From positions 1-64,000 of the forward strand of contig JAPLKI010000007.1 of NCBI GenBank assembly GCA_026388155.1: a stretch of DNA of 64,000 bases. Reading direction: 5' to 3'. The DNA comes from Elusimicrobiota bacterium (GTDB taxonomy: Bacteria; Elusimicrobiota; Elusimicrobia; Elusimicrobiales; UBA9959). Position numbers and translations under genes: made by a program. Positions 3,090 through 19,203 of this stretch are shown here, one piece after another; positions within the stretch are counted from its first letter, which is position 1; each line of letters starts with the position of its first letter. Under the pieces are notes generated by a model, which saw only the letters and a list, made by a program, of their open reading frames with translations, had not been told where the DNA came from and ran no database searches.

Positions 3090-4691
3090 ATGACGACTGA
3101 CAATCAAATTTCCAGACGGCGCACCTTCGCCATTATCTCTCATCCCGACGCGGGCAAAACCACGCTTACCGAGAAACTTTTGCTTTACGGCGGCGCAGTG
3201 CAGCTGGCCGGGTCCGTTACCGCCCGCAGAAACCAGCAAAACACCACTTCCGACTGGATGGAACTTGAAAAAAAGCGCGGCATATCCATCAGCTCAACCG
3301 TGCTTCAGTTTGAATACCGCGATTTTTACATAAACCTGCTGGATACTCCCGGCCACAGGGACTTTTCCGAAGATACTTACCGCGTTTTGATGGCCGTGGA
3401 CGCGGCAATAATGGTCCTTGACGCCGGCAAGGGTATTGAGAGCCAGACGCTCAAGCTTTTTGAGATCTGCCGCCTGCGACAGATACCTATTTTCACTTTC
3501 ATAAACAAGCTGGACAGGCCCTCAAAGGACTCTTTGGAATTGCTGGATGAAATAGAAAAGTCGCTCCAACTCCATGTTTTTCCCGTCAACCTGCCGCTTG
3601 GCTCCGGCCAGGATTTTAAGGGCGTTTATGACCGCCGCCTTAAACAGGTGCATTTTTTTGAGCGAGTCCCCGGCGGCGCTTTCCGCGCGCCGGTAACCGT
3701 TCTGGACCGCTTTGACGAAGAGGTGTTGGCAAGGCTTGACGCTATCACCCGAAAGCGGGTTATTGAAGAAATTTCGGTGTTGGACCACGCCGGAGAACCG
3801 TTTGACGCCAAGGCGGTGCTTGCCGGAGATATGACGCCGGTGTTTTTCGGGAGCGCCATGAATAATTTCGGCGTGCAGATGCTGCTGGACGGCTTTCTTG
3901 AACTCTCGCCTCCGCCCCGCCCACAAAAAACCTTGTCCGGCAATATTTTGCCGGAGGACCCGCGGTTTTCCGGTTTTATTTTCAAGATCCAGTCCAACAT
4001 GGACCCGAAGCACAGGGATCAGATAGCTTTTTTAAGGGTGTGTTCGGGGGTGTTTCAAAGAGATATGCGGGTTTTGCACTCGCGCAGCGGCAAGAGCGTC
4101 CGGCTTTCAAGCTCGCACAAGCTTTTCGGCAGGAGCCGCGAAACCGTAAACGAAGCGTATCCCGGAGATGTTATAGGCATAGTGGGACATTCGGAATTCC
4201 GCATCGGCGACACGCTCACTGATGACGCTTCCATAGTTTACAAGGAAGTTCCGCGCTTCCCGCCGGAACATTTCGCGTTCCTTCACTGTTCAAACACGAT
4301 ACAGTTTAAAAAGTTTCAAACCGGCCTGGAGCAGCTTCTGCAGGAGGGCGTGGTGCAGGTATTTTCGTTTGGGGACGGCGCCCGGCGTCTTCCGCTTTTG
4401 GGAGCCGTGGGCCCGCTGCAGTTCGAGGTTTTGCAGCACAGACTGCAATTTGAATATGGGGCCGAAACCCGCCTTGAAGCCGCCCCCTGGAACATAGCCC
4501 GCTGGGCGGTTAAAACTCCGACTGAAGTTTTGGATGCGGCGACGCTCCCTTCCGGCTCCCGCCGGGCGCAGGACGCGAAAGGCAACACGGTCCTGCTGTT
4601 CCCCAAAGAATGGGAATGCGCATACTTCCTTAAGAACAACCCGAAGATCACCCTCTCAAAACTGCCCCCGGAAGCCCAGAAAACGCCCTGA
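3090..4691 (+). CDS. prfC: peptide chain release factor 3
   Basis: A GTPase that recycles release factors 1 and 2 from terminated ribosomes. From the ATG at 3090 the protein is about 533 residues, normal for RF3. It begins MTTDNQISRRRTF and then shows the G1 loop SHPDAGKTT, the G3 motif DTPGHRDFSEDTYR and G4 NKLD, all typical of RF3/EF-G GTPases. The reading frame is open further upstream, but those codons lie in the divergent promoter region and show no family similarity. The C-terminal half has the expected beta-barrel and RF3 domain (GPLQFEVLQHRL). The lasso cluster starts about 200 bases downstream on the same strand. Confidence 0.95.
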   Translation: MTTDNQISRRRTFAIISHPDAGKTTLTEKLLLYGGAVQLAGSVTARRNQQNTTSDWMELEKKRGISISSTVLQFEYRDFYINLLDTPGHRDFSEDTYRVLMAVDAAIMVLDAGKGIESQTLKLFEICRLRQIPIFTFINKLDRPSKDSLELLDEIEKSLQLHVFPVNLPLGSGQDFKGVYDRRLKQVHFFERVPGGAFRAPVTVLDRFDEEVLARLDAITRKRVIEEISVLDHAGEPFDAKAVLAGDMTPVFFGSAMNNFGVQMLLDGFLELSPPPRPQKTLSGNILPEDPRFSGFIFKIQSNMDPKHRDQIAFLRVCSGVFQRDMRVLHSRSGKSVRLSSSHKLFGRSRETVNEAYPGDVIGIVGHSEFRIGDTLTDDASIVYKEVPRFPPEHFAFLHCSNTIQFKKFQTGLEQLLQEGVVQVFSFGDGARRLPLLGAVGPLQFEVLQHRLQFEYGAETRLEAAPWNIARWAVKTPTEVLDAATLPSGSRRAQDAKGNTVLLFPKEWECAYFLKNNPKITLSKLPPEAQKTP

Positions 4692-4887
4692 TTTTATTTA
4701 CAAACGTGAACAATAGCCTTTTTAACCGTGGCACACTGGATTATAAAGTAAATAACCTGACTTTGGGGATATAATTCAGATTGCGATGAGAACTCGGGGT
4801 CCCAGTCAAAAATCATCAATTTGCTAAAATATCTACGCACATATTCTTTTAACAGTGACATTTAAAATCCATGTTGCCGGGATTACT
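4692..4887 (+). promoter_or_regulatory. intergenic region with candidate lasso-cluster promoter
   Basis: A good -10 hexamer TATAAT lies at 4770-4775, about 113 bases before the ATG at 4888. I see no convincing -35 hexamer at normal spacing and no strong intrinsic terminator for prfC. The assignment rests on the -10 box and on position only. Confidence 0.35.
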
Positions 4888-5193
4888 ATGACAAAAAAAG
4901 AGAAACCAACAGACCTTAAAAAAGAGTTTATCCGCAATACGGATATTTTGGCGTCGCCTATTCAGGAAGAGTTGGTAATGTTCGATGTGGAGGCCGGGAA
5001 ATATTTTAGCCTCAATGGGATGGCCGCCGTTATCTGGCGGCATCTGGGGACCCCCGTAACCGTTGAGGCGCTGTGCACTGAGTTGCAGAAAAATTTTGAC
5101 GTCTCTGCCGAGCGGTGCAAACAGGAAGTCGCGGCCTTTGTATCGGAACTGGAGGCCAAGGGCCTGATACGGACGCTGGAGCCGGAAAAATGA
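4888..5193 (+). CDS. lasso peptide B1 protein: PqqD-type RiPP recognition element
   Basis: 101 residues. PqqD-like proteins hold the leader of a ribosomal peptide and present it to the processing enzymes. Visible PqqD features are FDVEAGKYFSLNGMAAVIW, a typical beta-strand and helix entry (about residues 32-50), and a C-terminal helical part ending FVSELEAKGLI. In split-B lasso clusters this is the B1 protein, working with the B2 protease (here 10833-11312). The ATG at 4888 is preferred over a GTG 33 bases upstream because PqqD similarity begins shortly after it. It is the first gene of the cluster, 71 bases before the cyclase. Confidence 0.9.
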   Translation: MTKKEKPTDLKKEFIRNTDILASPIQEELVMFDVEAGKYFSLNGMAAVIWRHLGTPVTVEALCTELQKNFDVSAERCKQEVAAFVSELEAKGLIRTLEPEK

Positions 5194-5264
5194 CGGGTGC
5201 GTAGATTCAAAGACGGGATTCACACGGAATTAGACCATATCATCAGGAGAGAAATTACGTCAAC

Positions 5265-7199
5265 ATGAGCGCCATTTTTGGTCTGATCTATCTAGATGGA
5301 AGGCCCGTCACGCCGGAGCGTTTGGAAATAATGCGCCGCGCCCTGAAAGGCTGGGGGCCCGACGGTATCGTCAGCCGCATTAAGGGCTGTGCCGGGATGG
5401 GTTATGCCAACCTTCACACCACGCCTGAAGCCAGGTATGAAACGATGCCCTGGGAGGATCCGGATTCGGGGATCCTTATTACCGCCGCCGCCCGACTGGA
5501 CAATCGGGACGAGCTCTGCGATCTTTTCCACATCCCCGCACCCGAGCGGCCCGCCGTCCCGGACGGCCGCCTGGTCGCGCTGGCTTTCAGCCGCTGGGGG
5601 GACGACACACCCTCCCGCCTGTTCGGCGATTGGTCCTTTGCCGCCTGGGACCAGGCGCAACGCCGCCTATTTGTCGCCCGGGATCAGCTGGGGAATACGG
5701 GACTCTTTTACTGTCACAAGCATCCCTTCTTCGCTTTCGCCTCATCGCCCCAGGCGATTCTTACCTTACCCGAATTTTCCGTTAAACTAGATGAATGGCA
5801 GCTCGCCCGTTATCTAGTAATCTTCCCCGGCGCGGAGAAGGGATGGTCCCACACCTTCTGGGAGGATGTCCGTTCCCTCTTGCCCGCCCACAGCATGACC
5901 GTAACGCCCCAAACCCTGCAGCTCCGGAAATACTGGCGCATCGACGATGCCCCGGTCGTCCGCCTGGGTTCCGACAAAGACTATATGGAAGGGTTCATGG
6001 ACCATTTCCGGCGGGCCGTACGCGTACGGCTGCGCTCCGACAGGCCCATCGGGACCACATTGAGCGCCGGCCTGGATTCCGGTTCCGTCACGGCACTTGC
6101 GGCGGAAGCTCTGCAGGGCGCGGGGCAAACGCTGGCTGCCTTCACTTCCGTTCCCCTTTATCCGGCGGAACATCTGGTTCCCGGCGCCCTGGCCGATGAA
6201 TGGCCCCTGGCCCGCACGGTGGCTGAAAAGTATAAAAATATCCGGCATATTCCTATCAATGCCTCCGGCGTCTCCCCTGTCGGAGCCATCCGCGACAGTC
6301 TTGATGTGTTCGGCTGCCCCCTGCATGCGGCAGGCAACCTGTACTGGCTTCAGGCAATAACCAGCGAAGCCAGGCGTCAGGAGCTTGGTGTGCTGCTGAC
6401 GGGACAAATGGGCAACGGTACGGTCTCCTGGAGCGGCGGGAGGAACCGGATATTCTTTCTGCTTGCCGGCAGGCACTGGGATGAAGGGTTCAGCGCCTTG
6501 CGGACTTATCGGCAAAGAGAGGGCTGCTCCTGGTACCGGACTATGCGCCGCCATTTGTTGAGCCCCCTGCTGGGTCCCCTGTGGCGCAGACGACGGCTAT
6601 TTGTTCACCCCTCAAAACAGCCCTGGGGCGAATACAGCGCCATACTTCCGGCTTTTGCAAGGAGGATGGATCTTCAGGCGGCCATGCGCCGGGAGGATCA
6701 CGACCCGTTCTTTGCGGCACCCATGTCCCCCGAACAGGAACGGCGCCTGACCATCGAACAAAACTCGCCCGGGCTGTACATACACCACGGGCTTGGCGCG
6801 GCGGCCGGACTGGATGTCAGGGACCCCACTGCCGATGTCCGTCTGCTTATGTTCTGCCTTGGCGTACCCGAAGAAAAACACAGCAGCGGCGGCGGAGAGC
6901 GCATGCTGCTGCGTCGGGCCATGTGCGCGCTGCCGGACGAGGTGCGCTGGAATACTGCGCGGGGAAAGCAGGCGGCCGATGTGGGAAGGCGACTACTGGA
7001 TCACCGGGAAGAAATGGAGGAGGAACTGCAGGCACTGGCATCACACCGCTCGGTTCCGGCCTATGTGGACTGCGGCTCCCTGCAAAGCGCCTGGAAAGAG
7101 CTCCAGACGGAGGTTACCCCTCATACGAACCATCGGGCGGCATCGCTGCTCCTGCGTGGCGTTATGGCCGGGCGTTTTATAATGAATTCACTAAACTAA
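5265..7199 (+). CDS. lasso cyclase (asparagine-synthetase-like, C protein)
   Basis: 644 residues, similar to lasso macrolactam synthetases. It would adenylate the side-chain carboxylate of a core Asp and join it to the core N-terminal amine. An N-terminal glutaminase-like domain (about 1-210) starts SAIFG instead of the CGIFG of true asparagine synthetases, so the nucleophilic Cys2 is absent, as is usual in lasso cyclases, which do not use glutamine. The ATP-pyrophosphatase domain has the PP-loop LSAGLDSGS near residue 267. The C-terminus shows the DVRDPTADVRLLMFCLGVP region near residues 505-525, which matches the family. The stop overlaps the segment just before the first precursor, suggesting co-transcription. 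Confidence 0.93.
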   Translation: MSAIFGLIYLDGRPVTPERLEIMRRALKGWGPDGIVSRIKGCAGMGYANLHTTPEARYETMPWEDPDSGILITAAARLDNRDELCDLFHIPAPERPAVPDGRLVALAFSRWGDDTPSRLFGDWSFAAWDQAQRRLFVARDQLGNTGLFYCHKHPFFAFASSPQAILTLPEFSVKLDEWQLARYLVIFPGAEKGWSHTFWEDVRSLLPAHSMTVTPQTLQLRKYWRIDDAPVVRLGSDKDYMEGFMDHFRRAVRVRLRSDRPIGTTLSAGLDSGSVTALAAEALQGAGQTLAAFTSVPLYPAEHLVPGALADEWPLARTVAEKYKNIRHIPINASGVSPVGAIRDSLDVFGCPLHAAGNLYWLQAITSEARRQELGVLLTGQMGNGTVSWSGGRNRIFFLLAGRHWDEGFSALRTYRQREGCSWYRTMRRHLLSPLLGPLWRRRRLFVHPSKQPWGEYSAILPAFARRMDLQAAMRREDHDPFFAAPMSPEQERRLTIEQNSPGLYIHHGLGAAAGLDVRDPTADVRLLMFCLGVPEEKHSSGGGERMLLRRAMCALPDEVRWNTARGKQAADVGRRLLDHREEMEEELQALASHRSVPAYVDCGSLQSAWKELQTEVTPHTNHRAASLLLRGVMAGRFIMNSLN

Positions 7200-7217
7200 A
7201 TGAATAGAGGAGGAAAC

Positions 7218-7394
7218 ATGAAAAATAATGATAAGAACGGAAAAGGAATGAAACGGCGGGTAGATTCCTCTAAAGCGGTAGACAACAAATCCATCAAGAA
7301 GCAGTGGCAAACACCTGAGATCATTGAAGAGGATGTCCGGAAAACCGAATCCGGTAGTGGGATCGCTAAGACGGATGCGGGGATTTATTCATAG
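7218..7394 (+). CDS. lasso peptide precursor 1
   Basis: 58 residues starting at the ATG at 7218, behind a strong GAGGAGG ribosome site. The leader contains KKQWQTPEIIEEDVRKTE. W, P and I lie in the register of the YxxPxL leader motif read by PqqD-type B1 proteins, and a Thr lies near the leader-core junction as in other lasso precursors. If that Thr is at -2, the core is SGSGIAKTDAGIYS, giving a ring between Ser1 and Asp9 and a five-residue tail. Cleavage one residue later would give Gly1 to Asp8. The C-terminal Ser fits the kinase in this cluster. The leader is almost identical to precursor 2, while the cores differ. Confidence 0.88.
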   Translation: MKNNDKNGKGMKRRVDSSKAVDNKSIKKQWQTPEIIEEDVRKTESGSGIAKTDAGIYS

Positions 7395-7397
7395 GTG

Positions 7398-7431
7398 TCA
7401 AATGTAAAGGTATTTATGCGACACTACACTA
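7398..7431 (+). repeat. solo copy of the terminal repeat of the 268-bp element
   Basis: 34 bases between the two precursors match the right terminal repeat of the element at 21613-21880 at 28 of 34 positions by eye, including ACACTACACTA at the end. No internal element sequence is present. It could be an excision scar, or a recombination site that took part in the precursor duplication. Confidence 0.6.
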
Positions 7432-7451
7432 GAGACTATGGAGATTAAAAC

Positions 7452-7631
7452 ATGAAAAATATTGACAAAAACAGTAAAGGAATGAAACAGCGGATAGATT
7501 CTCCTAAAGCGGCGGATGATAAATCCCTCAAGAAACAGTGGCAAACGCCTGAAATTATTGAAGAGGATGTCCGGAAAACTGAAGTCTCCATTAATGGGGG
7601 GAAGGGTGCGGATCTGGGGTCCTATTCATAA
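7452..7631 (+). CDS. lasso peptide precursor 2
   Basis: 59 residues with ATG at 7452 and GGAG eight bases upstream. The leader repeats KKQWQTPEIIEEDVRKTE of precursor 1 exactly; the earlier part differs at several positions. The sequence after the conserved leader is VSINGGKGADLGSYS. With Thr at -2 the Asp would be core residue 10, outside the usual 7-9. If cleavage is after Val, core Ser1 to Asp9 gives a standard nine-residue ring. The peptide ends YS like precursor 1, so both could be phosphorylated at the C-terminal Ser. It is clearly a tandem duplicate with a diversified core. Confidence 0.85.
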   Translation: MKNIDKNSKGMKQRIDSPKAADDKSLKKQWQTPEIIEEDVRKTEVSINGGKGADLGSYS

Positions 7632-7742
7632 TAATACGCTCCCTTACAGGAGATTACATCTGACAACGCGACTGTCTCAATATTGCAGTCCGGAAGTTCA
7701 AAAACGGGATAATACCCCGAAGGATTCGTGATAAGGGAAGAA

Positions 7743-8861
7743 ATGAACTTATACTATCGACGGAGCCCGGCCTTTACAGACTGCCGCAATGGGATACTTC
7801 ACGCCCGGCCGCCGGACAGCAATAAACAACTGCGTTTAGAGGGCACAGGCAGACGGATATGGGAACTTCTGGAATATCCTGTCACGATTACTGAGATATC
7901 CCTTAACCTGGCCGGTGAGTTCTCAGGCGATGTTGAAAAGATCGCCGGGTATACCGGCAGGTTCTTGAAATCGTTGCAGGAGCGGGGCCTGACGGAAACC
8001 CGCCGTAAGGCGCCGTCGCCCGAAGACAAGCAGCGGTTCAGCTACCTGGGGCTTCTGAAGCGCGCCCTAGTCAACCTGATCTATCCCGAGCATGAGCTGC
8101 GGATACGGTTTCTCGAAAAGCGGGCTGCCGGCATGACCGGGCTGGAACGAAAGCGCTACCTGCGGGACATAAGGTACCGGGAACCGGAGCTGTATCAGGC
8201 GGTAATTGACGCCAAGCATGACTTCGGCATGTCGGACCGGGCGCGCTACGCTTTCAGCCACACAATGATCGGACTCCCGGGACTGGATAATCTGGAGCGG
8301 TGCGCCGAGGCGGTGTTCTCGGAAAATATCCCCGGCGATTTCATGGAGGCGGGCGTCTGCCAGGGCGGCGCTGCCATCTTTATGCGGGCGCTGCAGAGAG
8401 CTTATGGAGAGGGAGGCCGCCGTCTTTGGGCCGCCGATTCCTTCGAGGGGCTGCCGCCGCCCGGGTCAGGACCGGACGCGGCGCAGGGGTTTGATCTGTC
8501 AGAAACGAAGGTGCCGTCTTTGGCGTTTTCTTTAGACGGCGTGCGCGACAATTTCATCCGTTACGATCTTTTAGACTCGCAGGTCGTTTTCCTGCCGGGC
8601 TGGTTTACCGACACCCTTCCGACAGCGCCTATAGAACAACTTGCCATCCTGAGATTGGATGCCGACCTCTATTCATCGACCAAAACCGCCCTGGAGTGTC
8701 TCTATCCCAAGGTTGTCCCAGGCGGATTTATTATCATTGACGATTACGGTTTTTTTGCGGCCTGCCGTCAGGCAGTTGACGAATATCGCGCCCGGCACGG
8801 TATTAAAGAGCCCATTAAACTTGTCAACCGGTCATGCGTTTATTGGAGGAAACGAAGATGA
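7743..8861 (+). CDS. PqqD-domain / TylF-type methyltransferase fusion
   Basis: About 372 residues from the ATG at 7743 (GGGAAG just upstream). Residues 1 to about 95 look like a PqqD-type recognition element (RIWELLEYPVTITEISLNL ... FLKSLQERGLTE), comparable in layout to the B1 protein. The remainder is a TylF/MycF-type class I methyltransferase, with GDFMEAGVCQGGAAIFMRAL as the SAM-binding segment, AADSFEGLPPP, LRLDADLYSSTKTALE and GGFIIIDDYGF carrying the metal and substrate acidic residues seen in macrocin O-methyltransferases. I infer a leader-guided O-methylation of the lasso precursor. The last bases overlap the next start (ATGA). Confidence 0.85.
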   Translation: MNLYYRRSPAFTDCRNGILHARPPDSNKQLRLEGTGRRIWELLEYPVTITEISLNLAGEFSGDVEKIAGYTGRFLKSLQERGLTETRRKAPSPEDKQRFSYLGLLKRALVNLIYPEHELRIRFLEKRAAGMTGLERKRYLRDIRYREPELYQAVIDAKHDFGMSDRARYAFSHTMIGLPGLDNLERCAEAVFSENIPGDFMEAGVCQGGAAIFMRALQRAYGEGGRRLWAADSFEGLPPPGSGPDAAQGFDLSETKVPSLAFSLDGVRDNFIRYDLLDSQVVFLPGWFTDTLPTAPIEQLAILRLDADLYSSTKTALECLYPKVVPGGFIIIDDYGFFAACRQAVDEYRARHGIKEPIKLVNRSCVYWRKRR

Positions 8862-9817
8862 CGCGCCGCCCCAACCCGACGCCGGCCGTCTCCGTGGTCA
8901 TGACGGTCTATAACAGCGCCGTCTTTGTCGCGGAGGCTATCGAATCCATACTGGGGCAGACCTTTGAAGATTTTGAGTTTATCATTGTGGACGACGGTTC
9001 CACCGACGGCTCGCCGGATGTTGTCCGACGCTACGCCTCCGGCGATCCCCGTATCCGCCCGTTCTTTCTAAGTCACGGGGGCAGTCACTCCGCTGTCAAT
9101 TTCGGCGTACGGCAGGCGGCTGGAAACTGGATCGCCCGCTGCGACCATGACGATATCTCGCTCCCTTCCCGTCTTCGGACCCAACTAGACTGGGCGCAGG
9201 CGGCAGGCGTTGATATCTGCGGCAGCAGTTACGAAAACATGGGACTGCGTGAGGGGGAAGCGTGGTGTCCCGAGTCCCACGAAGCGATCTGCCGTGAGAT
9301 GCTGTTCCGGGTAGTTATTCTGTGCGGCGCAACTATGATGCGAACCGAAATAGCCAAAAACAATCCCTACCGGGAGAACATTTTTCTGGACGATTATGAA
9401 TGGGTAATGCGGATGGCTCCGAAGGTCCGTCTTGGGAATGTTCCCGCCGTACTATTGAAGCGCCGCTGCCACGAGTTGCAGGCCAGCCGCCTGAACGCGG
9501 GACGGATCAGAACTGATCTTCAAAGGTACAGGTTCCAATATTTCTATGCGCGGTACCCGCACACACCACTGGCCGACTATCTGGCACTGGCGCGGGTTTC
9601 CGACAAGCAGCCCATGACAAGCCCTGCCGAATTGCGCCGGGCGGGCGAGTGGCTGTTGGAGCTGGCCCGGCACCCGGACCCAATGTTGCGGAAAATGATG
9701 GCCCAACGCTGGCGGGAAACCTGTGACCGCTCTATAGTGTTGGGAGATAAATGCGAGACTGTCTTCAGGGAGTACCGGGAACGGTTTGACGCCGATACCG
9801 AAAACAATGAATACTGA
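8858..9817 (+). CDS. family 2 glycosyltransferase
   Basis: About 319 residues from the ATG at 8858, preceded by GGAGG and overlapping the methyltransferase stop by four bases. The N-terminal GT-A fold shows VSVVMTVYNSAVFVAEAIES, the nucleotide-sugar loop IIVDDGSTDGS and CDHDDISLPSRL with the metal-binding acidic residues. FLDDYEWVMRM (about residue 175) holds the likely catalytic-base region. In this cluster it most likely glycosylates the lasso peptide or its phosphate; some related clusters with HPr-like kinases give glycosylated phospho-lasso peptides. Donor and acceptor cannot be read from sequence. Confidence 0.88.
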   Translation: MTRRPNPTPAVSVVMTVYNSAVFVAEAIESILGQTFEDFEFIIVDDGSTDGSPDVVRRYASGDPRIRPFFLSHGGSHSAVNFGVRQAAGNWIARCDHDDISLPSRLRTQLDWAQAAGVDICGSSYENMGLREGEAWCPESHEAICREMLFRVVILCGATMMRTEIAKNNPYRENIFLDDYEWVMRMAPKVRLGNVPAVLLKRRCHELQASRLNAGRIRTDLQRYRFQYFYARYPHTPLADYLALARVSDKQPMTSPAELRRAGEWLLELARHPDPMLRKMMAQRWRETCDRSIVLGDKCETVFREYRERFDADTENNEY

Positions 9818-10766
9818 CGCCATATCCGGCTCCACTGCGGCGCCGAAACCTGCGACTTACTCCCTCTATGGCTTGCGGGTCCGCAGCGATCTGCCCCTTC
9901 CTCTGGCGCACGAAAGTAACGACGGCACCGATCTTACAGTCCGCTTTGCCGGGCTTATCCCACGCTCTGATTCCATGCCCCTGTTCAAGGAATGGCGCCG
10001 GGAAGGAGATCAATGGCTGTTGCGTTTTCAGAGCCGTAAGGGCCATGTGCTTGAATTTCGTTATGACCTTGGCGGAAAGACCATTACCATCCGCCAAAGC
10101 TATCCGGAACCGTCTAACGCGCTGTTCGCGCTTATGTGTCCCGCTATGGCCGCCGCGCTCCATCTGCAGGGAAGGCTTGCATTGCACGCCACATCCCTGG
10201 TGCATAACGGCGAAGCGTTCCTGCTGATGGGTTCGAGCGGGACCGGCAAATCCACCCTGGCCGCCGCCCTCGCCTCCGCGGGCCTGTCTTTCCATGCCGA
10301 CGACATCAGCGCCCTGAGTTGGGATAACGGCCGCCCCGTTATTCAGGCGGGTTATCCGCGCCTTAAGGTCACTCCCCGGGTCTGTGAAGCTCTTGGTTTG
10401 CCGGCAAACGCTCTGCGTCCCCTCTTCGTTGCGGCTCCCGAGTATCCGGAAACATGGGTGGACTGCGCTGTTCTGCCGGGGGGCTTTCACTGCGGTCCGG
10501 CTCCACTCAAGGCAATTTATCTCCTGTCCGACCGCAAAGCCTGTCTTAAGACCCCACGCCTGGAAACCCTGTCCCCCGGCCAGGCCGCGATGGCTATGGT
10601 TCGCTTTCTATACGGCGCACCCTGGCTTGCAACTCCGACGGCTTCTGCAATGCAGTTTTGCGCACGGATAGCCGCGACTACATCCGTCCGCCGTTTGTGG
10701 CTGCCGGAAGGCTTGGAAAACCTCCGTGACTCTGCGCATGCCATAACTGCCGATATGAATTTTTAA
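9807..10766 (+). CDS. HPr-kinase-like lasso peptide kinase
   Basis: About 319 residues, ATG at 9807 overlapping the glycosyltransferase stop; a GTG at 9786 is the alternative start. The C-terminal kinase domain has the P-loop MGSSGTGKSTLAAAL (about residue 143) and FHADDISAL, the acidic motif of HPr kinases and their lasso-tailoring relatives. YSLYGLRVRSDLPLPL at the N-terminus is the typical start of the relatives found beside Asn-synthetase-like genes. Kinases of the paeninodin type phosphorylate the C-terminal Ser of lasso precursors, and both precursors here end in Ser. I infer the same role. Confidence 0.88.
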   Translation: MNTDAISGSTAAPKPATYSLYGLRVRSDLPLPLAHESNDGTDLTVRFAGLIPRSDSMPLFKEWRREGDQWLLRFQSRKGHVLEFRYDLGGKTITIRQSYPEPSNALFALMCPAMAAALHLQGRLALHATSLVHNGEAFLLMGSSGTGKSTLAAALASAGLSFHADDISALSWDNGRPVIQAGYPRLKVTPRVCEALGLPANALRPLFVAAPEYPETWVDCAVLPGGFHCGPAPLKAIYLLSDRKACLKTPRLETLSPGQAAMAMVRFLYGAPWLATPTASAMQFCARIAATTSVRRLWLPEGLENLRDSAHAITADMNF

Positions 10767-10832
10767 ATCATATAGAGGTTTTTTAAAAAAAGCGGTGTTT
10801 TAATAAGACAGCGGGAATATCGTTTACTGATA

Positions 10833-11312
10833 ATGAATACCGATATAAGAATGTCATGGTTTAACTACTTTTACGCCGTTCCCGCCAAATGGCGCCGCCG
10901 CACGCGTGTTGAGCGGTTGTTATTGCTAGAAGCGTTCGTGCTGCTGGGCATCGCGCGTCTGACGGTGCTGGCTCTGCCTTTCAAATGGCTGTCCGGCTCT
11001 TTGGGCAGGCATATGAACGAAGCAGCGGACCTTGTCAGCGCCTCCGAGCTTGAGCTTGCCCGGCAGGTGGGCAGGGCCGTGCGTTCGGCCGCGAACTATA
11101 CTCTATGGGAGAGCGTCTGCCTGCCACAAGCGGTCGCGGCCCAGTGGATGCTGAAACGCCGTCATATCGCCGGCACTCTGTACCTGGGTCTGGCAAAAGA
11201 TGAGGCAAAGACGGAAAAACTTGCTGCTCACGCCTGGCTTAGTTGTGGAGGTCTCGTTCTTACGGGCGCACGGGGACATCGGCAATACACAGTGGTATCC
11301 ATGTTTTCCTGA
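10833..11312 (+). CDS. lasso peptide B2 leader peptidase (transglutaminase-like)
   Basis: 159 residues. The B2 proteins of split lasso systems are Cys-His-Asp proteases of the transglutaminase fold that cut the leader once B1 presents it. The likely catalytic Cys is in LWESVCLPQA (about residue 95) and the His in LAAHAWLSC (about 131). The C-terminal GARGHRQYTVVSMF fits the family ending. A hydrophobic segment near residues 28-48 is usual for B2. Its start lies 66 bases after the kinase stop with no strong ribosome site; ATG 10851 is an alternative. Confidence 0.9.
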   Translation: MNTDIRMSWFNYFYAVPAKWRRRTRVERLLLLEAFVLLGIARLTVLALPFKWLSGSLGRHMNEAADLVSASELELARQVGRAVRSAANYTLWESVCLPQAVAAQWMLKRRHIAGTLYLGLAKDEAKTEKLAAHAWLSCGGLVLTGARGHRQYTVVSMFS

Positions 11313-11339
11313 ATCCCTGGAGGAAAGGTAATTCAACAG

Positions 11340-11906
11340 ATGACCGGAACCGATATTACGCAGCCACAGGGTACAGAAGGCAATATCTGCATTGAATGCG
11401 GCTTGTGCTGCGACGGAACATTGTTCCCGAAGGCAATAATTAAAAACAATGATGATCCGGCGTTCCTTAAAGAGATGGAGGTTGAATCCTTTTCGGAAGG
11501 CGGCAAGCGGTACTTCCGTCTGCCTTGCAGGGGACAGAAAGGCAAATTGTGCGCCTTGTATAGTGATGAAAGGCGCTATGAAATCTGCAAAACATTCAGG
11601 TGCAGGCTGCTCAGACAGTATGCTGCCGGGGAAATATCCTATGACTCCTCCATTGCCGTGATCAAGGAGGCTTTATCACTTGGCCTGCGCGTAAAGGAGT
11701 TTTCCGGAAGGCTGAGGGCCGCTGGCATCAGCAGCGAGGAATTTATGCCTTCTCTTCTCAAGGACCTGAAGCTGAACGGAAAACTTGAGGATCTTTCGTT
11801 CAGGAGAACATATTCAAAACAGCTAATGGACTGCTTTATGTTTATAGAGCTGCTCAAGCGGAGATTCTATAAAATACCCGGCAAAGCGGTGGAATGCGCG
11901 AAGTAA
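11340..11906 (+). CDS. YkgJ-type cysteine-cluster protein
   Basis: 188 residues. The N-terminal third holds clustered cysteines: CIECGLCCDG, CRGQKGKLCALY and CKTFRC. This is the pattern of YkgJ/FliB-type zinc or iron-sulfur binding proteins. The remainder is helical and charged with no motif I recognise. GGAGGAAAGG lies about 12-20 bases before the ATG. It is same-strand with the lasso genes at a 27-base gap, so it may be a tailoring enzyme or metal-dependent helper. This family is not a standard lasso component, and its role here is open. Confidence 0.7.
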   Translation: MTGTDITQPQGTEGNICIECGLCCDGTLFPKAIIKNNDDPAFLKEMEVESFSEGGKRYFRLPCRGQKGKLCALYSDERRYEICKTFRCRLLRQYAAGEISYDSSIAVIKEALSLGLRVKEFSGRLRAAGISSEEFMPSLLKDLKLNGKLEDLSFRRTYSKQLMDCFMFIELLKRRFYKIPGKAVECAK

Positions 11907-11949
11907 TATTTGCAAGAAAGGATCGCTCCGTCCTTTGCATATTCTGGAT

Positions 11950-12142
11950 ATGAAAAAACAAATTCTTGACGCAGCCAGGCGCTTCCGGCAACAGCTTCCC
12001 TATCTGCCGCTGGCATTTAAACTGATTAGACAGGCGGCCGGCGGATTGGCCCTCGTTTGGGCGGTCCTGCTTCTGGTCCAGGGACTGTTGCCTGTTGCCG
12101 CGGTGTATCTTACCCGGACACTTGTGAACGGAATTGAACGCG
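11950..12142 (+). pseudogene. truncated ABC exporter (lasso D protein remnant)
   Basis: Only the first ~64 native codons remain: a charged N-terminus, RRFRQQLPYLPLAFKLIRQA, then one or two hydrophobic segments (LALVWAVLLLVQGLLPVAA) and VYLTRTLVNGIERG. This is the usual start of an ABC transporter transmembrane domain, as in lasso exporters. At 12143 the frame enters an inverted-repeat element and stops at 12174. No nucleotide-binding domain follows. The expected ~600-residue exporter is therefore missing its permease remainder and ATPase. Confidence 0.8.
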
Positions 12143-12244
12143 GGGGGACGCTGCACGATAACTCGATAACTTGAAGGGGCACTAACAAATAATCGTTCTG
12201 AGGCAATGAGAACAAAACAATCGAGTTATCGTGCAGCGTCCCCC
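12143..12244. mobile_element. 102-bp element with 25-bp perfect terminal inverted repeats
   Basis: The arms 12143-12167 and 12220-12244 are perfect reverse complements, starting GGGGGACGCTGC. The 52-base interior has no coding capacity. It is a MITE-like remnant that ends the ABC exporter gene. The sequence after 12244 does not resume the transporter, so the insertion was accompanied by deletion or rearrangement. Confidence 0.85.
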
Positions 12245-12343
12245 ATTCCCATCCTTTTAAAACGAATTTATACCTGTTTTGATTTTTGGTATACTCTTAA
12301 TTGTCCAATGCCCGCATATCTGTAAAGTACGGGCACAACAAAT

Positions 12344-12434
12344 GGAGAGGTGGCCGAGCGGCTGAAGGCACCGGTTTGCTAAACCGACATACGTGTGTAA
12401 ACGCGTATCGAGGGTTCGAATCCCTCCCTCTCCG
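12344..12434 (+). tRNA. tRNA-Ser(GCT)
   Basis: A 91-nt serine tRNA: acceptor GGAGAGG / CCTCTCC with discriminator G, D arm, anticodon GCT at 12378-12380 in loop TTGCTAA, a long variable arm (ACATACGTGTGTAAACGCGTAT) and T arm GAGGGTTCGAATCCCTC. A -10-like TATACT precedes it near 12291. The acceptor and T arm match the broken tRNA-Ser at 1868-1936. Confidence 0.97.
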
Positions 12435-12766
12435 AAACGCTTTTAAAGAGAAGAACGAGCCAACTGCTTGGCTCGAGTGAGGGATGAGAAAGGCGGAGCG
12501 TTGCCGCACTTTGTGCGGCGCGAGCCGGGGTCGCGACCTGCGGCTCAGAGGCCGCAGAGTTGTGACCGAATCCCTCCCTCTCCGAACTAATTTTCGCTGA
12601 CGCAGAAATTAATTCGAAGGATCAAGTAGAAAGAATTGAGAAACGAGTAAAAACGAAAATTAGTTCCCTTGCTGCTTACTCCTTGTTCCTGTCGACAGGT
12701 TAGCGTAGCCGACCCCGATCTTTTTTCCTATTTGACTCCGCTATCTCCTGTTTAAAAAGAGGAACC
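12435..12766. other. intergenic region with a duplicated tRNA-Ser 3' end
   Basis: The 20 bases CGAATCCCTCCCTCTCCGAA that end the tRNA (12417-12436) recur at 12567-12586, a footprint like those left by integration at tRNA 3' ends. Between the copies are GC-rich palindromic pieces. Further on, AACTAATTTTCG (12585-12596) is inverted at 12653-12664. No gene is supported. Confidence 0.7.
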
Positions 12767-13276
12767 ATGTCAAAAATAGCCATAATAATGGGGAGCGATT
12801 CCGACCTGGGGATCATGCGGGAAGCGGCGCTTACGCTTGAATCTTTCTCTGTTGAATGCGAAGTGAACGTTCTCTCGGCCCACCGAACCCATGCCGCGCT
12901 GCAAAACTACGTTAAAGCCGCCGTAAAAAAAGGCGTAAAGATATTTATCTCCGGAGCGGGGGGGGCCGCCCACCTGCCGGGGGTAATAGCCGCCATGACC
13001 GAACTGCCGGTTATAGGCGTGCCCATAAAAAGCGCCGCCCTGGACGGGTTGGACGCCATACTCTCCATCATCCAGATGCCCTCAGGCATCCCCGTGGCCG
13101 CCGTGGGAGTAAATGGCGCAAAAAACGCCGCATTGCTGGCCGTTTCCATGCTTGCCTTAAGCGACAGAAAACTTGCCGTAAAACTTTCCAGCTACCGCAA
13201 AAAAATGCGCGTGGAAATTCTTAAAAAGAACTCCAGGCTCCGGAAAATCGGCCACAAAAAATATCTCAGCAGGTAA
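12767..13276 (+). CDS. purE: N5-carboxyaminoimidazole ribonucleotide mutase
   Basis: 169 residues, a purine biosynthesis enzyme converting N5-CAIR to CAIR. It has the family start IIMGSDSDL, then SAHRTH (about residue 41), FISGAGGAAHLPGVIAA, GVPI and MPSGIPVAAVGVNGAKNAAL. This is the bacterial class I PurE pattern, with the active-site SDSD and His. AAGAGGAA precedes the ATG. The C-terminal tail (about 20 residues rich in Lys and Arg) is a small extra. It overlaps the next gene by one base (TAATG), so the two form an operon. Confidence 0.96.
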   Translation: MSKIAIIMGSDSDLGIMREAALTLESFSVECEVNVLSAHRTHAALQNYVKAAVKKGVKIFISGAGGAAHLPGVIAAMTELPVIGVPIKSAALDGLDAILSIIQMPSGIPVAAVGVNGAKNAALLAVSMLALSDRKLAVKLSSYRKKMRVEILKKNSRLRKIGHKKYLSR

Positions 13277-14229
13277 TGAAAATAGTAAAAGCCACGCCGG
13301 CGAATATTAGAAAAGCCGCGGCCATAATACGCCGCGGCGGGGTGGCGGCTTTCCCCACGGAAACTGTTTACGGACTGGGGGCTGACGGACTGAACCCGCA
13401 AGCCTGCGCGCGGATCTTTGAAATTAAAAAAAGGCCCCGTTTTGATCCCCTTATACTGCATGCGGCCTCGCTTGGACAGGCAAAAAAACTTTTTTTAAAA
13501 ATACCGAAACCGGCCCTTAAACTGATGAAAAAGTTCTGGCCGGGCCCGCTGACTTTGGTTTTACCGAAGAACGACATCGTGCCCGACATTGTAACTTCCG
13601 GCCTTCCCACCGTAGCGGTGCGCGTACCGGCGCACCCCGTGGCACTAAAACTTATAAAACTCTCAGGCCGGCCTATAGCCGCCCCAAGCGCGAATCTTTT
13701 CGGGCGGCTCAGCCCCACAACCGCCACCCATGTAAAGAATCATCTTGGGAACAGCCCTGATATTATTCTGGACGGGGGGAAAACCAGCGTGGGAGTGGAA
13801 TCCACCATCCTAACTTTTATAAAAAACAGGCCGGTGCTGCTGCGGGCCGGAGGAATTACCGTTGAAGAGATAGAGAAGACGGTAGGAAAACTGGTTTCCC
13901 GGCCTAAAGGTGCGAAAAGAATAACCGCGCCCGGCGGGCTTAAAAAACATTATGCCCCGGTCGTAAAGCTTAAACTGGTAAATACCGAAGCCGAGGCAAT
14001 ACCCGGCCAGTATTCGGCTTACCTTGCATTCTCAAAAATGCCGCTTGGAAAATATAAAAAAGCGGCGGTGCTTTCCGCCAGCGGCGACCTGCGTGAGGCC
14101 GCGGCCAATCTGTTTAAATGCCTTCATTCGCTTGAACAAAAGGGCGTAAGAGTCATTTACGCGGAGCGCGTGCCTAAGCATGGCCTGGGGCTCGCCATAA
14201 TGGAAAGGCTCAGGAGAGCTCAGCATTAG
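13276..14229 (+). CDS. tsaC: threonylcarbamoyl-AMP synthase (Sua5/YwlC type)
   Basis: 317 residues. The enzyme makes L-threonylcarbamoyladenylate for the t6A modification at position 37 of ANN-decoding tRNAs. The YrdC domain shows GGVAAFPTETVYGLGADGL, KKRPRFDPLILH, WPGPLTL, VAVRVPAHP and APSANLFGRLSPTTA. The extra ~110 C-terminal residues after APGGLKKHYAPV make it the long Sua5 form rather than the short TsaC form. It is translationally coupled to purE. Confidence 0.95.
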   Translation: MKIVKATPANIRKAAAIIRRGGVAAFPTETVYGLGADGLNPQACARIFEIKKRPRFDPLILHAASLGQAKKLFLKIPKPALKLMKKFWPGPLTLVLPKNDIVPDIVTSGLPTVAVRVPAHPVALKLIKLSGRPIAAPSANLFGRLSPTTATHVKNHLGNSPDIILDGGKTSVGVESTILTFIKNRPVLLRAGGITVEEIEKTVGKLVSRPKGAKRITAPGGLKKHYAPVVKLKLVNTEAEAIPGQYSAYLAFSKMPLGKYKKAAVLSASGDLREAAANLFKCLHSLEQKGVRVIYAERVPKHGLGLAIMERLRRAQH

Positions 14230-14388
14230 GTATATGGAAAAATTGCCATAGGCCATATGGGCGCTGCGCCCGCCATAGGCCAGAGGCCATAAGCTATAAG
14301 AAAACTCCAAAAAAGCATATAGCCTACAGCCTATAGCGTACGGCATTTTTCTGCCTATGGCTTATGGCCGAAAGCATACGGCGATTTC
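14230..14388. repeat. intergenic cluster of CCATAGGC/GGCTATAGC-type repeats
   Basis: A convergent intergenic region filled with degenerate alternating units such as GCCATAGGCC, AGGCCATAAGCTATA, AGCCTATAGCGTACGG and GGCTTATGGC. These can pair into hairpins. Similar units recur at 27660-27776 and 38075-38100, so this is a dispersed intergenic family. Confidence 0.7.
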
Positions 14389-16359
14389 TCAACACTTATA
14401 ATATTTAAACATTTCCGCCATGAACAGGAACTGCGCCGCATGGGCTGCGGCCGGCTTTGGGAGCGAGATTTTAACCCGTGAGCGGTACTCGCTCAGGCGC
14501 TGGCTGAAAGCGGCGGCCGCTTCCTTTTCCGTGACCTTAAGTTTTTCAAAATCCAGTACCAGCTTAACCTTTGTTTCCTTCAGATAAATCCGCAGTTCCT
14601 CGGCCAGCTTCTCTCCCTGATAACGGTCCAGCGCGCCCTCAAGGCGCACCCGCAGCTGGTTTTTGCGGCCGTCGTATTGCTCAACCAGCACGGATAGTTT
14701 CTGCGGCACATTGTAAGCGGCTATGCGCTGGGCCAGCCATTCACGGCTGAACTGCGGCGGCGGCATGCGCCAGGAAGCGCGCATAAGCGCGGGGTTCTGG
14801 AATAAATTGAAGCGCAGTTTAAAAGAAGTCCACAAGGCCGCGGCCACGGCGCCCCAGGCCAGCGCCCTGTCGGCAAAGGAAGGGTTGCCGAGAGCCGCGT
14901 AAACATTTTTCTTAATACGGTGCACTATGGCGCGCGCGCGCAGCGTGGGGCCGAACAATTCTCCCGCCAGAAAAACGGGATAGCCCTTGCGCGCTTCAGC
15001 GGCGTAGCGCGCGGCTTTAATCCTAAGAAAGGGGTTGCTGGAGTCTTTATGTTTAAGGTAGCCGGTCAGCAGGGTCTCGGCCACGCGGTAGATGGAGGGG
15101 CCCAGCTCGCGGAAGTCGGTCCTGAAGCAGTATTCCTGGGAATTTTCTATTTCCGCTGCCGTCATGCGGGGATGTTCCAGCAGTGACTTGAAACCGCTGG
15201 CAACTTTCCAGTACTTGGCGGGATTCTCGGCGTATTCCCGGCGCAGAAGGCCGCCGGCGCGCACCTTATCGTAAAGCGGGGTGCCGGGATTCGGATTATA
15301 GATCATGAACTGGCAGAGGTCCGGTTTCATGGCCAGTAGTTTCTTAAGCTCGCCGCGGATTATGTCGGTGGTCTGGTAATCAAAGCCCACTATCATGGAA
15401 GCCAGGATCATTACGCCGTTATCTTTCAGTCCCTTGAATATCTCTTCGGCTGACTTGCCGGCGCGCTTATCATAACCCGAGCGTTCGCCCTCGTAACCTA
15501 TCCACACGCCGTCCACGCCCATTTCGAGCAGTTCTTCCGGCTGGTAAAGGCTGAGCGCCTTGATGCTCGCGAAAGCAAAAATTGAAAGCGGCCGGCCGCC
15601 GGCCACCACCAGGTCGCGGAACTCAAGGGCCCGTTTGCGGTCAAGCAGGAACTCCTCGTCTAAAATAGTGAACTGCGCGTCCGGATTTACTTTGAGGTGC
15701 CTTTTCACCACTTCGTAAACCTGCGCGCCGGTGGAAAGCAGGCGCAGATGCTGACGCTTGAAAAAATGTGAGGTGGAGCAGAAGTCGCAGCCGTTAGGGC
15801 AGCCGAGCCCCGCGAAGATCATGCCGGTGCGGGAAATTGTTTTTGAAAAGATCTGCATCTGGCTTTCTATGAACGGATGCTTATGCTCAAGCAGCGGCGG
15901 CTGACCCAGTAATTCGCGCGTGAAAGCCACGCCCTCGCCCCGGCAGATATGATCGCCAAAAGGTGTAAGGGCCTCGTCCGGCAGCACGGTTCCGTAGCCG
16001 CCCAGGATTATTTTGCTATTCGGGGAATACTTGCGCACCAGGGTTGAAAGCTCCTTCATGCGGTGATAAGTGACCACTATGAAGGAAATTCCCACGTAGT
16101 CATAACCTTTTTTAAGTTCTTTTATCAGTTCCCGCTTTGAGGGATAATGCAGCGCCACGGTGGGATTGTCAAGGTTTTCGGCTATGTAATCCAGGGAGAA
16201 CTGGCGGTGCACGGCGCGCGGGCTGAACATCCCCTGCGCCCTGGTGACCTGCGCGTGAAGCAGCTCATAGCCCACGCTCTGGGCGTCGCCATAGGCGGGT
16301 CCTATGGGGCGCATAATGCTGGTAAGTAAAAGTTTCGGCGCTTTGTTGCCTGTGGTCAC
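14389..16359 (-). CDS. B12-binding-type radical SAM protein with a C-terminal STAS-like domain
   Basis: 656 residues, GTG start with GGAGA upstream. The N-terminus (about 1-155) looks like a cobalamin-binding Rossmann domain without an obvious DxHxxG: YDYVGISFIVVTYHRMKEL and SKIILGGYGTVLPDEAL. The radical SAM cluster is CPNGCDFC (CxxxCxxC, about residue 190), followed by FTILDEEFLLDRKRALEF and a TIM-barrel-like core to about 400. Residues ~540-640 (LRVRLEGALDRYQGEKLAEE ... VKLVLDFEKLKVTEKEAAAA) resemble a STAS domain. The substrate is unknown; relatives often act in lipid, hopanoid or secondary metabolism. Confidence 0.82.
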   Translation of the reverse strand: MTTGNKAPKLLLTSIMRPIGPAYGDAQSVGYELLHAQVTRAQGMFSPRAVHRQFSLDYIAENLDNPTVALHYPSKRELIKELKKGYDYVGISFIVVTYHRMKELSTLVRKYSPNSKIILGGYGTVLPDEALTPFGDHICRGEGVAFTRELLGQPPLLEHKHPFIESQMQIFSKTISRTGMIFAGLGCPNGCDFCSTSHFFKRQHLRLLSTGAQVYEVVKRHLKVNPDAQFTILDEEFLLDRKRALEFRDLVVAGGRPLSIFAFASIKALSLYQPEELLEMGVDGVWIGYEGERSGYDKRAGKSAEEIFKGLKDNGVMILASMIVGFDYQTTDIIRGELKKLLAMKPDLCQFMIYNPNPGTPLYDKVRAGGLLRREYAENPAKYWKVASGFKSLLEHPRMTAAEIENSQEYCFRTDFRELGPSIYRVAETLLTGYLKHKDSSNPFLRIKAARYAAEARKGYPVFLAGELFGPTLRARAIVHRIKKNVYAALGNPSFADRALAWGAVAAALWTSFKLRFNLFQNPALMRASWRMPPPQFSREWLAQRIAAYNVPQKLSVLVEQYDGRKNQLRVRLEGALDRYQGEKLAEELRIYLKETKVKLVLDFEKLKVTEKEAAAAFSQRLSEYRSRVKISLPKPAAAHAAQFLFMAEMFKYYKC

Positions 16360-16475
16360 TTAAATCTCCAAAATTTCCCAACCCCTGGTTCAATTATATA
16401 AAATTAACAGGGAACACAGGTGATTTGACTTAGAGACGCAACATGCTAGAATAATAAGCCGTCAGGGGAATTAAA

Positions 16476-17639
16476 ATGAAAAATTTCACTTTTTATAATC
16501 CGGTAAAAATAATTTTCGGAAAAGGAACGATTGAAAAAATCGGAGCCGAGGCCGCCGGCTACGGCAAAAAGGCCCTGCTTGTTTACGGAAAGGGCAGCAT
16601 AAAAAAGAACGGCGTTTACTCCGCCGTAACGGACAGTCTTAAGGCATCGGGCGTGGCTTTTGCGGAGCATGAAGGAGTAAAATCCAACCCGGTCCTTTCT
16701 CACGCCCGCGAAGGCATAAAAAAAACCAGAGAGAATAAATGCGATGTCATCATAGCGGCGGGCGGCGGCAGCGTGATAGACGAGTCAAAAACCATAGCGG
16801 CCGGCGCCTTATACGCGGGCGATGTCTGGGATTTTTTTACCGGCAAAGCGGGAGTTAAAAACGCGATGCCGCTGCTGACAGTTCTGACCATTCCGGCCAC
16901 GGGCTCGGAGATGAACTCGGGTTTCGTATTGACAAACGAGGGCACAAAAGAAAAATTCGCATCCGGCTCGGCCATGTCTTTCCCCAAGGTCTCGATAATG
17001 GACCCGCTCGTCACCGTTACCCTCCCTAAAGCGCAGACGGCCAACGGCGCGGTGGACGCTTTGGCTCATATCGTTGAGGGCTATTTCACCACTAAAGATA
17101 AAGACGCCGCGATAACCGACGAACTGGTGCACGCCATTGCCCGCTCGGTCATCGCAAGCACGGACCGGATACTCGAAAACCCCGGGGATTATAACGCCCG
17201 GGCCTCCATGATGTGGTCGGCCACGCTCGCCCTGAACGGTTTGCAGGCCCTGGGCTACGGCGGGGGAAGCTTCATAAATCACGCGATAGAACATTCACTG
17301 AGCGCCTTGTACGATATCGCGCACGGAGCGGGGCTGGCCATAGTTATGCCGGCCTGGTTTAAATATGACCTGAAAACTTCGGGGCCGGAGCGCCTTGCTA
17401 AATTCGGCAAAGCGGTATTCGGCATTGCCGCGGCTTCGGACGCGGAAGCGGCGGAAATGACGATAGCCGCTTTTGAAAAATGGTTTTCCAAAATAGGCGC
17501 TCCGCTGAAACTTTCGGAAGTGAAAATACCGGCTGCGGACATCCCGAAAATAGCGGAAAACGCCATGGGACTTATAAACATGTGGGAAATAGACTGCGAC
17601 CGGAAGTCTGTTGAGGAGATACTCCGCAAGGCGGCGTAA
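16476..17639 (+). CDS. iron-containing alcohol dehydrogenase (butanol dehydrogenase/YqhD-like)
   Basis: 387 residues, the normal length. It should reduce aldehydes with NAD(P)H. The nucleotide-binding half shows KALLVYGKGSIKKNGVY and AAGGGSVIDESKTIAAG; TIPATGSEMNSGFV follows. Metal ligands fit GAVDALAHIVEGY (Asp, His), FINHAIEHSLSALYDIAHG (two His) in the expected order. TFYNPVKIIFGKG at the start is typical of YqhD-like enzymes. It is alone between two convergent or divergent intergenic gaps and probably acts in fermentation or aldehyde removal. Confidence 0.93.
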   Translation: MKNFTFYNPVKIIFGKGTIEKIGAEAAGYGKKALLVYGKGSIKKNGVYSAVTDSLKASGVAFAEHEGVKSNPVLSHAREGIKKTRENKCDVIIAAGGGSVIDESKTIAAGALYAGDVWDFFTGKAGVKNAMPLLTVLTIPATGSEMNSGFVLTNEGTKEKFASGSAMSFPKVSIMDPLVTVTLPKAQTANGAVDALAHIVEGYFTTKDKDAAITDELVHAIARSVIASTDRILENPGDYNARASMMWSATLALNGLQALGYGGGSFINHAIEHSLSALYDIAHGAGLAIVMPAWFKYDLKTSGPERLAKFGKAVFGIAAASDAEAAEMTIAAFEKWFSKIGAPLKLSEVKIPAADIPKIAENAMGLINMWEIDCDRKSVEEILRKAA

Positions 17640-17647
17640 TAGTAACA

Positions 17648-17708
17648 CAGGTAGACAGAATTCAGGAGTCAGAATTCAGAATTCCGGCTTCTGACTCCTA
17701 GCTGCCTG
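17648..17708. repeat. dispersed hairpin repeat (GAATTCAGGAGTCAGAATTC family), copy 1
   Basis: It begins CAGGTAGACAGAATTCAGG, continues AGTCAGAATTCAGAATTC and closes with CTTCTGACTCCT...CTGCCTG, giving a hairpin. Related copies are at 33324-33422 and 58597-58702. Confidence 0.85.
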
Positions 17709-17725
17709 ATAAGCATAATCTTGTA

Positions 17726-19171: not shown

Positions 19172-19203
19172 CGATATAGCTGCACAGTTGACAGACCGTT
19201 AAT

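Follow-up and report, generated by a model that had tools for sequence, protein, structure and literature searches.

Gene content and core lasso enzymes

The 64,000-nucleotide stretch analyzed here (the window) opens contig C7 (JAPLKI010000007.1) of genome G000, an Elusimicrobiota metagenome-assembled genome (MAG) of 3.36 Mb and 96.9% completeness, and it carries a biosynthetic gene cluster (BGC) for a lasso peptide. Nine cluster genes, from B1 at position 4888 to the gene of a Cys-rich CxxCxxCC-type protein that ends at 11906, lie on the plus strand, and all are open and uninterrupted. A first-pass annotation, made from the letters alone, had placed here B1, cyclase and B2 genes with two precursors, three tailoring enzymes (kinase, glycosyltransferase and methyltransferase), a Cys-cluster protein and a host from a probable uncultured phylum; all of these genes are confirmed at this place, and the host assignment agrees with the MAG. 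Its description of the set as "fully armed" was overstated, as the cluster's own ABC exporter gene is truncated. Judged from its genes, the locus is a lasso-peptide cluster of the phosphorylated type, with an ordinary core and an unusual tailoring set that includes a methyltransferase of the TylF type fused to a recognition element (RRE) for ribosomally synthesized and post-translationally modified peptides (RiPPs). This RRE domain, the truncated exporter, an inverted-repeat element next to it and the horizontal transfer of the cluster had gone unnoticed in the first pass.

Within the core, B1, B2 and a lasso cyclase adjoin a precursor. The B1 gene (4888..5193) encodes a discrete RRE of the PqqD family with 101 amino acids (PF05402, E 4.7e-20), which also matches a lasso PqqD-family chaperone of known structure (PDB 9x90, E 4e-9) and the lasso_PqqD_Bac model NF033536 at 69 bits against a cut-off of 80. 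The cyclase gene (5265..7199) encodes an Asn-synthase-like lasso macrolactam cyclase of 644 amino acids with an SAGLDS ATP motif; it matches NF033535 (E 5.9e-105, 352 bits against a curated 525) and shares 90.5% amino acid identity with the ortholog in L012, a locus of genome G158. In a tree of 11 sequences with long branches, the window cyclase branches with two paeninodin-like cyclases from Bacillota (support 96/94), a grouping that gives only a hint of relationship. The B2 gene (10833..11312, alternative start at 10851) encodes a transglutaminase-like leader peptidase with a Cys in CLPQA, scoring 101 bits with NF033537 (lasso_biosyn_B2) against a cut-off of 33. The Cys-rich protein (11340..11906, 188 amino acids) matches PF03692 (CxxCxxCC) at 20.2 bits, just under the cut-off of 23, and is kept in the ortholog cluster at 81% amino acid identity.

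Precursors and kinase

Two precursor genes follow the cyclase gene on the same strand: A1 (7218..7394, 58 amino acids) and A2 (7452..7631, 59 amino acids), the latter with an ortholog precursor in L045. Their leaders carry the WxxP motif as WQTP and have near-identical ends (KKQWQTPEIIEEDVRKTE); the cores differ, and both end in YS. For A1 (KTE/SGSGIAKTDAGIYS), which weakly matches the paeninodin family NF033524 (E 0.003), a 14-residue core is predicted, with Thr at position -2, Asp at position 9 and a C-terminal Ser. A2 (KTEVSINGGKGADLGSYS) and the G158 precursor (KTEVGPPNFGTTDMGMYS) have one extra residue relative to A1, leaving two options: a cut after Val, which would give Asp9, a 14-residue core and Thr at -3, or a ten-member ring, which keeping Thr at -2 would force. 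The predicted core of A2 is thus SINGGKGADLGSYS (Asp9, cut after Val) or VSINGGKGADLGSYS. A1 combines a [Y/W]xxP leader with Asp or Glu at core positions 7-9, and A2 does so only if cut after Val; this cut, with Asp9 kept, is the favored prediction for both A2 and the G158 precursor.

A C-terminal Ser is common to A1, A2, the ortholog precursor and the precursors of the second lasso clusters. Together with the WxxP leader, it is characteristic of precursors of the paeninodin type (PMC13381572); in these, according to a lasso-peptide review (PMC9266682), phosphorylation of the terminal Ser precedes maturation. The kinase gene (9807..10766, plus strand) encodes an HprK-type precursor kinase of 319 amino acids, whose match to TIGR04352 (HprK_rel_A, E 1.7e-9) scores 37 bits where the curated cut-off is 200. 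Its motif, H-x14-G-x2-G-x-GKS-x15-DD, has exactly the spacing of characterized lasso kinases, the residues of which are described in that review and in PMC10368454. The first-pass annotation had envisaged a phosphorylated, glycosylated and methylated product; its first element, predicted phosphorylation of the precursor, is well supported because the kinase motif is intact and every precursor ends in Ser, whereas glycosylation and methylation are at the level of plausible.

Glycosyltransferase and RRE-TylF fusion

Between the precursors and the kinase lie the genes of the methyltransferase (7743..8861) and the family-2 glycosyltransferase (8858..9817), the start of the second overlapping the stop of the first (ATGA). 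The glycosyltransferase (PF00535 Glycos_transf_2, E 9.3e-30) is 87% identical in amino acids to its ortholog, with a ratio of nonsynonymous to synonymous divergence (dN/dS) of 0.18. The methyltransferase, of 372 amino acids, has a PqqD/RRE domain at its N-terminus (PF05402, E 5.7e-8, over its cut-off) and a TylF-type O-methyltransferase domain at its C-terminus (PF05711, E 1.3e-81). Across 341 Elusimicrobiota genomes, this fusion was found only in the window protein and its G158 ortholog; the other TylF matches in these genomes begin at query residue 82 or later. Of 29 matching plasmid records, none reaches 80% coverage of the fusion protein, and no further fusion was found there.

In an alignment with NovP (2wk1), MycF (4x7u) and 4cdz, the TylF domain keeps the Asp of LRxD and the Asp-Asp of I(I/V)DDY. 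In this family these Asp residues bind the metal, and NovP and MycF methylate sugars. The presence of the RRE suggests that the methyltransferase would act on a leader-bearing precursor. Glycosylation and methylation of the peptide are plausible on the basis of enzyme family, conserved co-localization and selection. A more specific idea is put forward tentatively and is held to be unlikely: before the leader is removed, the fusion O-methylates a sugar that the phosphorylated terminal Ser carries, making this the first phospho-glyco-methyl lasso peptide; if true, it would amount to leader-guided methylation of a glycan, not of a peptide. With this fusion it can be tested directly whether a sugar-type methyltransferase can be recruited to a RiPP precursor by an RRE. 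The TylF class is absent from the lasso tailoring steps in the part of the review considered (PMC9266682), an RRE survey names, in the part considered, glycosyltransferase fusions and no TylF (PMC12710340), and a literature search found no paper combining "lasso peptide" with "TylF".

Ortholog cluster and horizontal transfer

Mining genomes for homologous clusters, which the first-pass annotation had proposed as a check, yielded an ortholog cluster in G158, a genome of the same family as G000 and of a different genus. A GTDB scan with the cyclase returned only this ortholog, in the uncultured Elusimicrobia MAG AlinenLipids_bin-3311, which has the same assembly content as G158. The same genes stand there in the same order on separate contigs, with the exporter complete; the first precursor copy is interrupted by an insertion near a contig end, and another precursor lies on the next contig. 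Nucleotide homology between the two loci runs from 4821 to 12134 of the window and into neither flank. Gene by gene, amino acid identity is 81-92%, synonymous divergence (dS) 0.19-0.34 and dN/dS 0.18-0.39, the last range spanning all seven intact non-precursor genes, including those of the glycosyltransferase, methyltransferase and kinase. Chance is excluded as the origin of the gene set, since these genes recur in another Elusimicrobiota genome at this identity and under this constraint.

The adjoining prfC gene behaves differently, being only 63% identical in amino acids to that of G158 and 92-93% to those of congeners (dS 0.60 against congener G002). Because the cluster has a dS of 0.19-0.34 to another genus while prfC is this divergent, these comparisons are most simply read as horizontal transfer of the cluster, its intact genes being under purifying selection on average. 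In congener G001, an MFS transporter and a putative lipoprotein lie between prfC and purE instead. An old, vertically inherited family trait was considered and rejected, since two congeners are without the cluster in a B2 search and the similarity across genera is far above that of prfC.

At 1868-1932 of the window lies a remnant of tRNA-Ser(CGA), 66 nt of its 3' end being identical to the intact gene in congeners G001 and G002; its 5' end is missing, and ARAGORN does not report this remnant in the window. At 12418-12433, the 3' end of tRNA-Ser(GCT) (GAATCCCTCCCTCTCC) is present and is repeated 150 bp downstream at 12568-12583, which resembles the att trace of an integrated element.

Truncated exporter and repeat element

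Downstream of the Cys-rich protein gene, a plus-strand exporter remnant of about 63 codons (11950..12138, M at 11950) matches residues 1-68 of the ortholog's 611-residue ABC exporter at 85% identity and then ends, the frame continuing to a stop at 12174. This stop lies within a MITE-like element of about 100 bp (12142..12245, no strand) with perfect 25-bp terminal inverted repeats (GGGGACGCTGCACGATAACTCGAT), which ends the exporter. The element or a single end of it occurs at four places in G000: in the window and, in related form, at C18:63014-63116, at C20:5409-5509 and at C20:85454-85485. A simple insertion of the inverted-repeat element into the exporter gene was rejected as a full account, since the other ~540 exporter codons are nowhere in the assembly; no other piece of the 611-residue protein was found in it. 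The dedicated exporter is thus truncated in the assembly of G000 and complete in the ortholog, although the truncation could in principle be a false assembly join at a ~100-bp repeat in a MAG. A full ABC exporter paralogue, 86% identical to the ortholog's exporter, lies on contig C22 in the second lasso cluster, and export would need this transporter because the cluster's own is cut off.

Lasso clusters elsewhere in the phylum and beyond

Among the 341 Elusimicrobiota genomes, B2 scored over the cut-off in three; candidates in G162 and G017 were rejected as sub-threshold, the G162 copy also containing stops. The second cluster of G000 is distant from the first and lies on C22:350000-369999 (L033, about 8009-19477). 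It comprises a cyclase, HprK kinase, family-2 glycosyltransferase, B1, a precursor with leader motif WRTP that ends SGSGQGVDAGLTS, B2, the complete ABC exporter and NTP_transf_5; its cyclase groups with alphaproteobacterial cyclases in the same 11-sequence tree. A HAD-like gene lies inside this cluster on the opposite strand. In G158, contigs C65 and C31 share an end within a radical-SAM gene, with a SynChlorMet-type cassette between two lasso types, so that both types appear to stand side by side there; these arrangements suggest that RiPP clusters of the phosphopeptide type have been exchanged within the family. A third, distant Elusimicrobiota lasso cluster (L047, G217:C22:50000-69999, about 3955-11035) has several YxxP-type precursor-like open reading frames (ORFs), cyclase, B1, B2 and ABC genes.

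Kinase-bearing clusters had been described in the first pass as known mainly from Firmicutes and proteobacteria. Their distribution is wider than that, with relatives on plasmids of alphaproteobacteria and even of haloarchaea. On plasmid pHALXA01 of Halopiger xanaduensis (L071, 22163-28943), an asnB-type cyclase candidate, B2, PqqD, a nucleotidyltransferase, a split HprK-like gene and a YxxP precursor-like ORF were seen, a kinase-type lasso cluster in an archaeon. Elusimicrobiota are already known to carry BGCs (PMC8692599, PMC11834409), and a literature search for Elusimicrobi* with lasso peptide gave nothing relevant by title or abstract. The locus places phosphorylated-type lasso peptides in this phylum, with evidence of recent inter-genus transfer.

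Proposed pathway and alternatives

Overall, we consider it probable that a phosphorylated, paeninodin-like lasso cluster has moved horizontally into an Elusimicrobiota chromosome and there encodes the following pathway. B1 would bind the WxxP leader and the HprK-type kinase would phosphorylate the C-terminal Ser of the precursor, after which the family-2 glycosyltransferase may attach a sugar, possibly to the phospho-Ser, the site used in pseudomycoidin. RRE-TylF could then dock through its own RRE on the same leader and O-methylate the sugar or a core hydroxyl, before B2 would remove the leader and the cyclase would link residue 1 to Asp9. Export would presumably fall to an ABC exporter, with the C22 paralogue having to stand in. 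What the data themselves show are the gene identities, the kinase motif, the precursor design, the horizontal transfer and, in the assembly, the truncated exporter. The chemistry up to ring closure is what would follow from the enzyme families, and in a related system the B1 protein helps both the kinase and B2 (PMC10368454). The most likely product is a lasso peptide of 14 residues, nine of them in the ring, with a phosphorylated terminal Ser, possibly glycosylated and methylated before leader removal.

Several observations weigh against this proposal. B1, cyclase and kinase all score under the NCBI curated cut-offs. A2 and the ortholog precursor cannot combine Thr at -2 with Asp at 7-9, and the fused RRE has Glu at a leader-contact position where discrete B1 proteins have Asn or Gly. 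An AlphaFold model of the fusion, built from a two-sequence alignment, reached a pLDDT of 34 and was not used. Lastly, the exporter truncation may mean decay.

Such decay would make the locus a relic, unused since the exporter was lost, with the remaining frames just recent enough to be intact. The ending of the exporter after about 63 codons, the broken first precursor copy of the ortholog and the weak constraint on the Cys-rich protein (the least constrained, dN/dS 0.39) agree with this, but the seven other non-precursor genes are open and under average purifying selection, even if a pairwise value blurs the times before and after the loss. The presence of two precursors whose leaders are conserved and whose cores differ also suggests use; a related exporter is available on C22, and the apparent truncation may be a false junction at the repeat. 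We regard a relic as unlikely, though as the strongest competitor. It is less likely still that only the kinase acts on the peptide, with glycosyltransferase and methyltransferase serving surface-polysaccharide chemistry and sharing no more than the operon. Polysaccharide loci commonly contain family-2 glycosyltransferases and TylF enzymes, clusters of the paeninodin type often lie within capsule loci (PMC13381572), and family-2 glycosyltransferase genes also surround the C22 cluster. Nevertheless, both genes are flanked by the precursor genes and the kinase gene, their stops and starts overlapping, both were kept in the ortholog across horizontal transfer, and the methyltransferase bears a precursor-binding domain. 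The production of a linear phosphopeptide (LPP-like) whose ring is never formed seems very improbable: LPP and paeninodin clusters have the same types of kinase, RRE and exporter (PMC13381572), but the cluster here has a conserved B2 and a conserved lasso cyclase that carries the ATP motif, the cores have Asp at ring-forming distance, and no SpI-type peptidase is encoded in it.

Comparison with known systems

LPP clusters resemble the window in their HprK kinase, discrete RRE and MsbA-like exporter (PMC13381572); they have a SpI-type peptidase and no cyclase, whereas the window shows the reverse, family searches giving no S26 peptidase match among the cluster proteins. The Bsf cluster of Bradymonas is likewise a kinase-type lasso cluster outside Bacillota with an odd -2 residue, Ile in Bsf (PMC10368454), but it combines a YxxP leader with phosphorylation of Ser3, in contrast to the WxxP leader and C-terminal Ser found here. 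The shifted cores of A2 and the ortholog precursor make it possible to test how strictly the Thr-2/ring-size rule holds.

For tailoring in other lasso systems, the comparison follows the review (PMC9266682). A methyltransferase also occurs in the lassomycin/StspM (C-terminal methyl ester) and cellulonodin/lihuanodin clusters, as a C-terminal carboxyl methyltransferase in the former and PIMT homologues in the latter; that of the window is of the TylF type with an RRE. Pseudomycoidin (PsmK, PsmN) shares with the window a kinase and a sugar-adding step, a hexose being put on phosphorylated Ser by another enzyme type: PsmN is nucleotidyltransferase-like, whereas the enzymes present in the window are a family-2 glycosyltransferase and a methyltransferase.

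The closest likeness is to the paeninodin type of Bacillota (PadeK/ThcoK), which has discrete B1 and B2, a cyclase, an HprK kinase with the same motif, a WxxP leader and a C-terminal Ser. The window differs in its 14-residue cores, its family-2 glycosyltransferase and RRE-TylF, the lack of an NTP transferase, a cyclase identity of only 29-30% and a host outside Bacillota. Additionally, a Gly in B1 separates paeninodins (PbaB1; PMC13381572), and B1 of both the window and the ortholog has Asn at the position of PbaB1 Gly42. Because this diagnostic Gly is absent and the exporter is broken, we do not class the cluster as a paeninodin one. The pairing of WxxP precursors with a B1 that lacks the Bacillota Gly bears on the published view that limits paeninodins to Bacillota (PMC13381572).

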